The position numbers were made by a program, and so were the translations under genes. Shown here one piece after another: positions 46,264 to 48,163 of a stretch of DNA of 64,000 bases. The first letter of the stretch is position 1. Each line of letters starts with the position of its first letter. The notes below the pieces were generated by a model, which saw only the letters and a program-made list of their open reading frames with translations, was not told the DNA's origin and did not search any database. This DNA is from Leifsonia sp. Leaf336 (GTDB taxonomy: Bacteria; Actinomycetota; Actinomycetes; Actinomycetales; Microbacteriaceae): assembly GCF_001423695.1 (NCBI RefSeq), contig NZ_LMOZ01000001.1, forward strand, positions 1,622,443-1,686,442, written 5' to 3'.

Positions 46264-46269
46264 TACCGT
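46264..46269 (+). promoter_or_regulatory. Putative -10 of the leuA leader promoter
   Basis: TACCGT lies 7 nt before the GTG of the leader peptide, so the leader mRNA would begin at or next to its start codon. The -35 region is not clear. Confidence 0.5.
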
Positions 46270-46276
46270 GGTTTCT

Positions 46277-46318
46277 GTGTACGGTCTGCTCCTCCTTAGC
46301 TGCCGCGACGAGTCCTAG
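46277..46318 (+). CDS. leuL: leuA leader peptide (leucine attenuator), MYGLLLLSCRDES
   Basis: A 13-codon open frame: GTG TAC GGT CTG CTC CTC CTT AGC TGC CGC GAC GAG TCC TAG. Four consecutive leucine codons, including the infrequent CTT, are the hallmark of a leucine-sensing leader peptide, and leuA starts 69 nt after its stop. The SD is absent and a -10-like hexamer sits 7 nt upstream, suggesting leaderless translation. Codons 9-12 overlap arm A of the downstream switch (46303-46312). Attenuation peptides before leuA are known from other actinobacteria; this one is inferred from sequence alone. Confidence 0.85.
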   Translation: MYGLLLLSCRDES

Positions 46319-46377
46319 TTCTGGGCCTCCCTCGTCGCGGAGTTCGTCGTTGGCTCTCCACACCACACCGCGAGGAG
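46303..46377 (+). promoter_or_regulatory. leuA translational attenuator (alternative hairpins A:B and B:C)
   Basis: Three segments can pair in two exclusive ways. A, CCGCGACGAG (46303-46312, inside the leader peptide), and B, CTCGTCGCGG (46331-46340), are perfectly complementary over 10 bp. C, CCGCGAGGAG (46368-46377), contains the leuA ribosome binding site GAGGAG and pairs with B at 9 of 10 positions (one G-G mismatch). A ribosome stalled on the first leucine codons leaves A free, so A:B forms and the binding site is exposed; a ribosome that reaches the stop covers A, so B:C forms and hides the site. This predicts leucine repression of leuA translation. Confidence 0.75.
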
Positions 46378-46387
46378 AAGACAGACC

Positions 46388-48163
46388 ATGAAGAACACTC
46401 AGGCGCCGAGCGCCATGCCGATCCACAAATACCGGCCCTTCCACGAGCAGATCCGCGTCGAGCTGCCCGACCGCACCTGGCCCGCGAACCGCATCACGGC
46501 CGCGCCGCGCTGGTGCGCCGTCGACCTCCGCGACGGCAACCAGGCCCTGATCGACCCGATGAGTCCCGAGCGCAAGCGCATCATGTTCGACCTGCTGGTG
46601 CGCATGGGCTACAAGGAGATCGAGGTCGGCTTCCCGTCCGCGAGCCAGACCGACTTCGACTTCGTGCGCAGCCTGATCGAAGAGGGCGCCATCCCGGATG
46701 ACGTCACCATCCAGGTGCTGACGCAGTCGCGCGAGCACCTGATCAAGCGCACGTACGAGTCGCTGGTCGGCGCCAAGCAGGCCATCGTGCACCTCTACAA
46801 CTCGACGAGCATCCTGCAGCGCGACGTCGTCTTCCGCACCGACCAGCAGGGCATCATCGACATCGCCCTCTCCGGTGCGCGGCTCTGCAAGCAGTTCGAG
46901 TCGCTGGTCCCCGGCACCGAGATCTACTACGAGTACTCGCCCGAGAGCTACACCGGCACCGAGCTGGAGTTCGCGGCCGACATCTGCAACCAGGTGCTGG
47001 AGGTCTTCGAGCCGACCGCTGAGCGCAAGGTCATCATCAACCTCCCGGCGACCGTCGAGATGGCGACGCCCAATGTCTACGCCGACTCGATCGAGTGGAT
47101 GTCGCGCCACCTGAACCACCGCGAGAACGTCATCCTCTCGCTGCACCCGCACAACGACCGGGGCACGGCCGTGGCCGCCGCCGAGCTGGGCTACATGGCC
47201 GGCGCCGACCGCATCGAGGGCTGCCTGTTCGGAAACGGTGAGCGCACCGGGAACGTCGACCTGGTCACGCTGGGCGTCAACCTGTTCACGCAGGGCATCG
47301 ACCCGCAGATCGACTTCAGCGACATCGACCAGATCAAGCGGACCGTCGAGCACTGCAACCAGCTGCCGGTCGGTGAGCGCAGCCCGTGGGGCGGCGACCT
47401 GGTCTTCACGGCGTTCAGCGGCTCGCACCAGGATGCGATCAAGAAGGGCTTCGAGGCGATGGCCGCGCAGGCCGAGCGCGAGGGCGTGTCCGTCGACGAC
47501 CTGGTCTGGGCCGTGCCCTACCTGCCTGTCGACCCGAAGGACCTGGGCCGCAGCTACGAGGCGGTCATCCGGGTCAACTCGCAGTCCGGCAAGGGCGGCG
47601 TCGCCTACCTGCTGAAGAACGACCACGCGCTCGACCTGCCGCGCAAGCTGCAGATCGAGTTCTCCGGCGTCGTGCAGGCGAAGACCGACGCCGAGGGCGG
47701 CGAGGTGACGAGCGGCGAGATCTGGTCGATCTTCCAGGACGAGTACCTGCCGGCGCCCGACTCCAACCCCGACGCCAAGTGGGGCCGATTCGAATTGGGC
47801 AGCACGAGCACGACCAACGAGACGGGCGAGCACGTCACTCTCACCGTCGCGCTGCGCGACGGCGACACCGTGTCGAAGGCCACGGGGGAGGGCAACGGCC
47901 CGATCGCCGCGTTCTTCGACATCCTGAACGCCCGCGGCATCAACGCCCACCTCTACGACTACTCGCAGCACACACTGTCGGCGAGCGAGTCCGCGCAGGC
48001 GGCGGCCTACGTCGAGCTGGACGTCGACGGCGTGCGCCTGTGGGGCGTCGGCATCGACGGCGACACGACGACCGCGTCGTTCAAGGCGGTCGTCTCGGCG
48101 GTCAACCGCGCGGTGCGCGCGTCGGCCGGCCATGCCGCAGAGGCCGAGCTCGTCGGCGCCTGA
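46388..48163 (+). CDS. leuA: 2-isopropylmalate synthase
   Basis: First enzyme of leucine biosynthesis: condenses acetyl-CoA with 2-oxoisovalerate. The 591-residue protein is the long LeuA2 type found in actinobacteria. The HMGL-like catalytic barrel begins with [15 protein letters not shown] (DLRDGNQ at 46-52), includes [40 protein letters not shown] with the metal-binding HxHND-type histidines and [20 protein letters not shown]. The C-terminal LeuA-dimer regulatory domain (about 440-580) would bind leucine for feedback inhibition. Start ATG 46388 is 10 nt from GAGGAG, which lies in arm C of the upstream switch, so leucine should control both translation and enzyme activity. Confidence 0.96.

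Follow-up and report, generated by a model that had tools for sequence, protein, structure and literature searches.

The window, by which we mean the whole stretch of 64,000 nucleotides analysed, contains a leuA gene preceded by a short leader open reading frame (ORF) with a run of Leu codons and by three strands, A, B, and C, the last of which holds the leuA Shine-Dalgarno sequence (SD; table 1). An upstream reading frame with an LPG_synthase_C domain ends at 46250, and the one match of a terminator pattern scan, a hairpin with a T-rich tail at 46253-46272, lies directly after this upstream gene and overlaps the leader promoter. The closest named leuA found was that of Leifsonia virtsii (93% identity), in a search that may omit the window's own genome. 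An earlier sequence-only reading of this DNA had placed the leader, the Leu codons, A, B, C, and the SD at coordinates that all hold; it missed the pseudoknot helix S2, the base stem of Leu codons and SD, and the published description of the element.

Table 1. Coordinates of the leuA leader features in the window and of the leuB elements in other genomes.
Feature	Position	Strand	Remarks
Extended -10 TGGTACCGT	46261..46269	+	Read by eye; ends 7 nt upstream of the leader GTG; promoter of leaderless type
Leader peptide ORF MYGLLLLSCRDES*	46277..46318	+	13 codons; GTG start at 46277, TAG stop at 46316-46318; conserved Leu-run ORF
Four Leu sensor codons CTG CTC CTC CTT	46286..46297	+	Predicted strand covering the leuA SD
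A, 5' strand of helix S1, ccgcgacgag	46303..46312	+	Covariation in the family and in diverse members
5' strand of pseudoknot helix S2, GGGCC	46323..46327	+	In the S1 loop; swap test, 146 members
B, 3' strand of helix S1, ctcgtcgcgg	46331..46340	+	Pairs with A 10/10; alternative pairing with C 9/10
3' strand of pseudoknot helix S2, GGCTC	46352..46356	+	Swap test
C, ccgcgaggag	46368..46377	+	Holds the leuA SD; 9/10 pairs with B
leuA SD GAGGAG	46372-46377	+	Inside C
leuA, 2-isopropylmalate synthase (IPMS) with LeuA_dimer allosteric domain	46388..48163	+	ATG 46388; TIGR00970, NF002991; Pfam HMGL-like, IPMS_D2, LeuA_dimer
leuB elements	L310:207-295; L311:4789-4871	L311 reverse	Scaffold before leuB
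leuB elements	L314, L315, L316, L318, L320, L322, L326, L329, L330, L332		Ile/Val-containing sensor codons

The object upstream of leuA is an LEU element, a kind already known: it was published in 2005 for actinobacterial leuA as a leader peptide, a base stem, and a pseudoknot (Seliverstov et al., PMC1262725), and Leifsonia xyli was among the genomes analysed in that study. All three parts occur here, with the base stem between Leu codons and SD being a prediction. The 2005 paper also describes an alternative hairpin beside the pseudoknot; a possible counterpart here is AGCTG (46298-46302), which can pair with TGGCT (46351-46355), with 85.5% of cells paired, no both-side changes, and a swap test P of 0.068. 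Similar leaders are described elsewhere. Streptomyces lividans TK24 is reported to carry the leaderless LeuL1, MRFGLLLLSCRGEGL*, before leuA, said to be without a typical terminator, as here (PMC8079986), and leaders with consecutive Leu codons before leuA are presented as attenuator leader peptides in Corynebacterium glutamicum (PMC4046766) and in C. diphtheriae (MNRANLLLLRRGGSQA*; PMC5784534). By their description, the mycobacterial leaderless poly-cysteine short ORFs (Canestrari 2020) can be set beside them, with repeated sensor codons for cysteine rather than leucine (PMC9094748, PMC13236596); these are described as translation attenuation (PMC13236596).

Considered by itself, the fold of 46264-46405 is not unusual (z -1.09, with 29 of 200 shuffles equally good), and the Rfam 15 covariance models gave just two chance-level matches over 45500-47000 (E 1.7 and 3.7), and so no T-box or riboswitch above chance; conservation must therefore carry the case.

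Conservation of the leader, helix S1, and the pseudoknot

To follow the leader across the family, 150 genomes were searched, of which 143 gave a leuA match; 90 of these loci, including the present one, were read and 53 were left out. Any ORF upstream of leuA was counted as a leader if it had no more than 40 codons and included an unbroken run of three or more Leu codons. The Leu-codon leader proposed by the sequence-only reading is present in 90/90 of these loci, where the Leu run is followed by SCRDES or variants of it such as SRRGEA. Of 80 named GTDB loci, a set in which some loci belong to the same species, 79 have such a leader, the exception being L174. An extended -10 of the form TGnTAnnnT was found in 83 of the 90 relatives (background 0/9456 positions), and in 81 the leader begins 6 or 7 nt downstream of it, which bears out the leaderless-type start claimed earlier; the present locus lies outside these 83, its own extended -10 having been read by eye rather than found by script. 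A pattern scan of the leader promoter detected neither a consensus -35/-10 pair nor an independent -35. From the spacing of the -10, transcription probably starts at or beside the leader GTG, in line with the leaderless LeuL1 reported from S. lividans (PMC8079986). The leader stop codon is likewise constant in position, starting 3 to 9 nt past A in 89/90 loci. A covariance model of the element found matches in 95 of 100 family genomes, the remaining five being without a leuA match; with a wider model, 109 of the 118 class genomes gave a match. When the first model was run on a phylum sample of 149 genomes, 13 carried the element, including one from outside the class.

Pairing of A with B (helix S1) is complete here, and it is 10/10 in 86 and 9/10 in four of the 90 loci, with G-U pairs allowed. 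Among 55 family sequences 99.5% of cells are paired; three of the ten pairs show changes in both strands, and seven are invariant. Among 38 diverse members 98.4% of cells are paired and six of the ten pairs show such two-sided changes, which occupy 37 cells, whereas shuffles gave 8.9 and slid versions no more than 8. These compensatory changes uphold the A:B pairing that had been read from the single sequence.

A second helix, S2, joins the loop of S1 with the stretch after B and thus forms a pseudoknot, its GGGCC:GGCTC here being kept with other letters in deviant members (for example GACCGGC:GCCGGTC and AGACC:GGTCT). In a swap test over 146 members, strands scored 12.57 with their own partner and 11.31 with swapped partners, and 0/10000 swaps equalled the native set. 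Of 166 candidates, three gave no leader and eight of the other 163 had fewer than nine S1 pairs, some of them (e.g., L290) from a wrongly chosen register; 146 were left once duplicates had been removed, and one of these, L121, carries a wrongly assigned leader. By group, the test was significant in four of five (P 0.0074, 0.011, 0.0132, and 0.0164), and the six leaders of the IPMS-paralogue group gave P=0.71. The first, family-only form of the test gave P=0.076, the significant form using restricted strands and more groups.

Elements before leuC, leuB, and paralogous IPMS genes

A BLAST search of the leader against its own genome revealed a second copy (G000:C2:1228143-1228184, corresponding to L003:1644-1685) before leuC (TIGR00170), with the leader MFAGLLLSRRGES*, an S1 helix of CCGCGGCGAG:CTCGCCGCGG, and the SD AAGGAG. 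With the element model, leuA and leuC gave the only matches in this genome at E<1, and no element was seen before its own leuB; a weak match at G000:C2:1185075 (E 1.08) was rejected as a leuB element, being about 2.2 kb upstream of leuB and of other sequence. Across the family, at least 56 matches were assigned to leuC by their coordinates, lying -4 to 247 nt before the gene, the other matches listed being taken as leuA by eye. The leuC locus was read in the best 30 of 146 genomes, 26 of which have a Leu-run leader, 17 of these being usable for folding. Ten family genomes have more than two matches, among which seven further elements precede paralogous IPMS genes, with leaders such as MLWNVLLLRRHGGA*; a further match lies at G085:C1:101985 (E 4.4e-4). 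Two of the seven paralogue proteins were domain-tested. One paralogue with its own Leu leader, L285:1616-3070, has no Pfam LeuA_dimer allosteric domain, and because of this it may be controlled by its leader alone.

From the class sample we fetched 20 matches, 19 of which were second matches in their genomes: the gene downstream is leuB in ten and an IPMS paralogue in seven, and two (L331 and probably L325) look spurious. L292, L293, and L294, second matches from the other sets, look spurious as well. The twentieth, L333 (88-206), has the leader MHTEQLLLRCRDGA and precedes a leuA of the alternative bacterial type (TIGR00973), whose ORF runs from 206, pointing to retention or transfer of the element as the enzyme type changed. 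Gene identities come mostly from reading translations, those in L310, L314, L321, L332, and L333 from NCBIfam.

Together with two found earlier, the class matches give twelve leuB leaders, and their sensor codons differ from the Leu run. The sensor stretches read VLIL, VRIL (three), IFVL (two), VYVLI, VLVLI (two), ILVVV, LIL, and LVIL, so that 11/12 combine Val, Ile, and Leu and the remaining one combines Ile and Leu. Of the class leaders before IPMS paralogues, six of seven have LLL, and that of L327 reads TTVL. Because the leuA and leuC sets were searched for LLL, its presence in them cannot count as independent evidence; the RNA models supplied the leuB leaders, whose codons were read later, but L310 and L311 had been part of the input to the second model. 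In L310, NCBIfam identifies leuB, ilvE, and cimA in a row, a set consistent with a requirement for all three branched-chain amino acids. A tiny conserved ORF with a C-terminal motif like LQESMDRRDNGG stands first after the leader, between it and leuB, in L310, L311, L314, L315, L320, and L326, with a weaker likeness in L322 and L330; two of these ORFs compared with NCBIfam and two with Pfam gave no match.

The 2005 paper reported the LEU element for leuA and for one Bifidobacterium longum transposase (PMC1262725), and the S. lividans account, in the part available, gives leucine leaders for leuA and leuS only (PMC8079986). Our limited search of the open-licence PMC literature, with subscription papers outside its scope, found no report of leuC, IPMS-paralogue, or leuB elements or of sensor-codon exchange. 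Within the scope of that search, the leuC copy, the elements of the IPMS paralogue and leuB, and the exchanged sensor codons are new.

Predicted blocking and release of the leuA Shine-Dalgarno sequence

Codon choice in the Leu run is biased. The last Leu codon is CTT in 90/90 loci, although the leuA ORFs of L151-L214 use CTT for just 2.1% of their Leu codons. The second- and third-last are CTC or CTT except in four of the 90, and the fourth-last, where it is a Leu codon, is CTG in 45/58. The Leu run pairs with its own SD region at -11.2 and with swapped ones at -10.1 (0/5000 permutations equal, relatedness uncontrolled). In folding models of 89 leaders, the share of SD pairing with the Leu codons in the ribosome-free ensemble is 0.64 on average and 0.86 here, and the SD is unpaired to 0.19; this openness rises to 0.46, 0.40, and 0.33 with the ribosomal A site on the third-last, second-last, and last Leu codon, respectively. 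On the third-last codon it exceeds the free state by more than 0.02 in 80/89 leaders. Relatedness was addressed at the genus level, by means over 61 genera, which are 0.20 free, 0.47 stalled, and 0.22 at the stop codon, with stalled above free in 56/61 genera. Shuffled leaders with the SD kept change by 0.03 compared with 0.26 for the native ones, and the free openness rises from 0.19 to 0.33 when the last three Leu codons are redrawn according to the codon usage of leuA, the native value being lower in 75/89. The 17 usable leuC copies behave alike, the SD opening in 16 of them (mean 0.19 to 0.50). At the present locus, the stalled SD opens to just 0.22-0.23 and then pairs with 46341-46361; holding the pseudoknot raises this to 0.37. 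In the leader sets this locus had a start placed 9 nt too early; refolded from the true start, it gave an equivalent outcome. Over the 89 loci, a role of the pseudoknot as anti-sequestor is unsupported (SD openness 0.49 when S2 is held and 0.55 with a control block). It might join the ends of the base stem, or may slow the ribosome, since S1 starts 5 nt past the sensor codons.

The Leu codons are thus the main SD blocker in the folding models, and owing to the codon bias and to the opening of the SD on covering them in most of the 89 leaders and 61 genera, the sensor codons themselves likely serve as the anti-SD strand. Six leuB leaders have a clear first gene. In the free model their sensor stretch closes the SD in three of them and leaves it unclosed in three, one of which, L314, is more closed when stalled than when free; 27/720 permutations give pairing as good as that of the native set.

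We consider it fairly probable that the LEU element is a translational attenuator whose sensor codons double as the SD blocker. With leucine plentiful, ribosomes would complete the 13-codon leader and leave, after which the pyrimidine-rich Leu codons would pair with the leuA SD, their ends being brought together by S1 and the pseudoknot, and leuA would be off. When charged tRNA-Leu is scarce, a ribosome would wait on the Leu codons and cover the blocking strand, leaving the SD freer, so that leuA would be translated in leucine-poor conditions. Here and in some other genera, B:C could act as a secondary lock while the ribosome stands at the stop codon. That the scaffold stays constant while its sensor codons follow the genes downstream suggests that ribosomes read these codons, and the codon bias, like the folding models, points to this stretch as the block on the SD. 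Taken as a whole, this favors translational attenuation by stalling.

The sequence-only reading had proposed a different switch, in which a ribosome finishing the leader covers A so that B:C forms and hides the SD, while a stalled ribosome leaves A:B in place and the SD free. Its prediction that stalling frees the SD stands in the folding models, and A:B and the Leu codons are conserved as it expected, but B:C is not supported as the general lock, and we regard this switch as unlikely. At least nine of ten B:C pairs occur in 19/89 leuA sequences (13/61 genera), compared with 2.4 expected when the SD hexamer is fixed and its flanks shuffled, and at least eight in 39 compared with 19.3; this excess, together with the constant spacing of the stop codon past A, speaks for it, and yet the 9/10 pairing is absent in 70/89. 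As a bare duplex, B binds the SD region more strongly than the Leu run does in 58/89 leaders (-18.3 vs. -14.2 here), and B prefers its own SD region over swapped ones (-11.52 vs. -11.24, P=0.0024), but pairing it there means tearing B from A, a duplex of -20.1 on average. In the ribosome-free ensemble, the SD pairs with B to 0.006 on average and 0.00 here. With the ribosome at the stop codon, B takes 0.20 of the SD pairing (0.40 here) and the Leu codons take 0.41 (0.49 here), and this state is not more closed than the free one (0.22 vs. 0.19 for leuA, a change of +0.03, with openness higher in 39 and lower in 15 of 89 leaders), contrary to what was expected of a ribosome finishing the peptide. 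The share of B is 0.000 free and 0.001 at the stop codon in the 17 leuC copies. We therefore reject B:C as the main or general lock; it is probably a helper in some lineages.

Quite unlikely, in our judgment, is the reading preferred in 2005, by a study that also drew the base stem of Leu codons and SD: that the element is the binding site of a regulatory protein, with helicase-like ML1624 orthologues proposed, and the leader peptide incidental (PMC1262725). A compact and conserved pseudoknot would suit such a site, and the preference for a protein followed from leuA leader mutations in S. coelicolor (Craster 1999), which reportedly had some effect and were inconsistent with classical attenuation (PMC1262725). 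A binding site would, however, leave unexplained why the sensor codons match the genes, with LLL at leuA, leuC, and most IPMS paralogues and Ile/Val at leuB, and why the leaderless-type start and the stop position are conserved. Transcription attenuation within the leader, whether intrinsic or Rho-dependent, appears very improbable: terminators are predicted for actinobacterial ilvB leaders (PMC1262725; PMC10272879), but where a classical transcription attenuator has its intrinsic terminator, between leader and gene, the pattern scan of the window, in agreement with the sequence-only reading, detected nothing resembling one from the leader start to leuA, and S. lividans leuL1 is said to have no typical one either (PMC8079986).

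A possible sensor for the leucine pathway

Beyond translational attenuation at leuA, we see about an even chance that one pseudoknot scaffold serves actinomycetes as an exchangeable amino-acid sensor for the whole pathway, in which the codons would both sense charged tRNA and act as anti-SD, and which would have been retuned from Leu only (leuA, leuC, and the IPMS paralogue) to Leu/Ile/Val (leuB, and leuB-ilvE-cimA in the operon checked) with S1, the pseudoknot, and the reading frame kept. The mechanism of the actinobacterial leuA leader has been unsettled since the ambivalent S. coelicolor mutants of 1999 and the binding-protein proposal of 2005, as they are related in PMC1262725, and our data suggest a simple, testable answer, namely sensor codons that double as the SD blocker. 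The odd S. coelicolor mutants may in part be explained by it, because one codon change would alter sensing and SD blocking together. The regulon is widened to leuC, the IPMS paralogue, and leuB, and the codon swaps found among these genes offer natural tests of the proposed mechanism.
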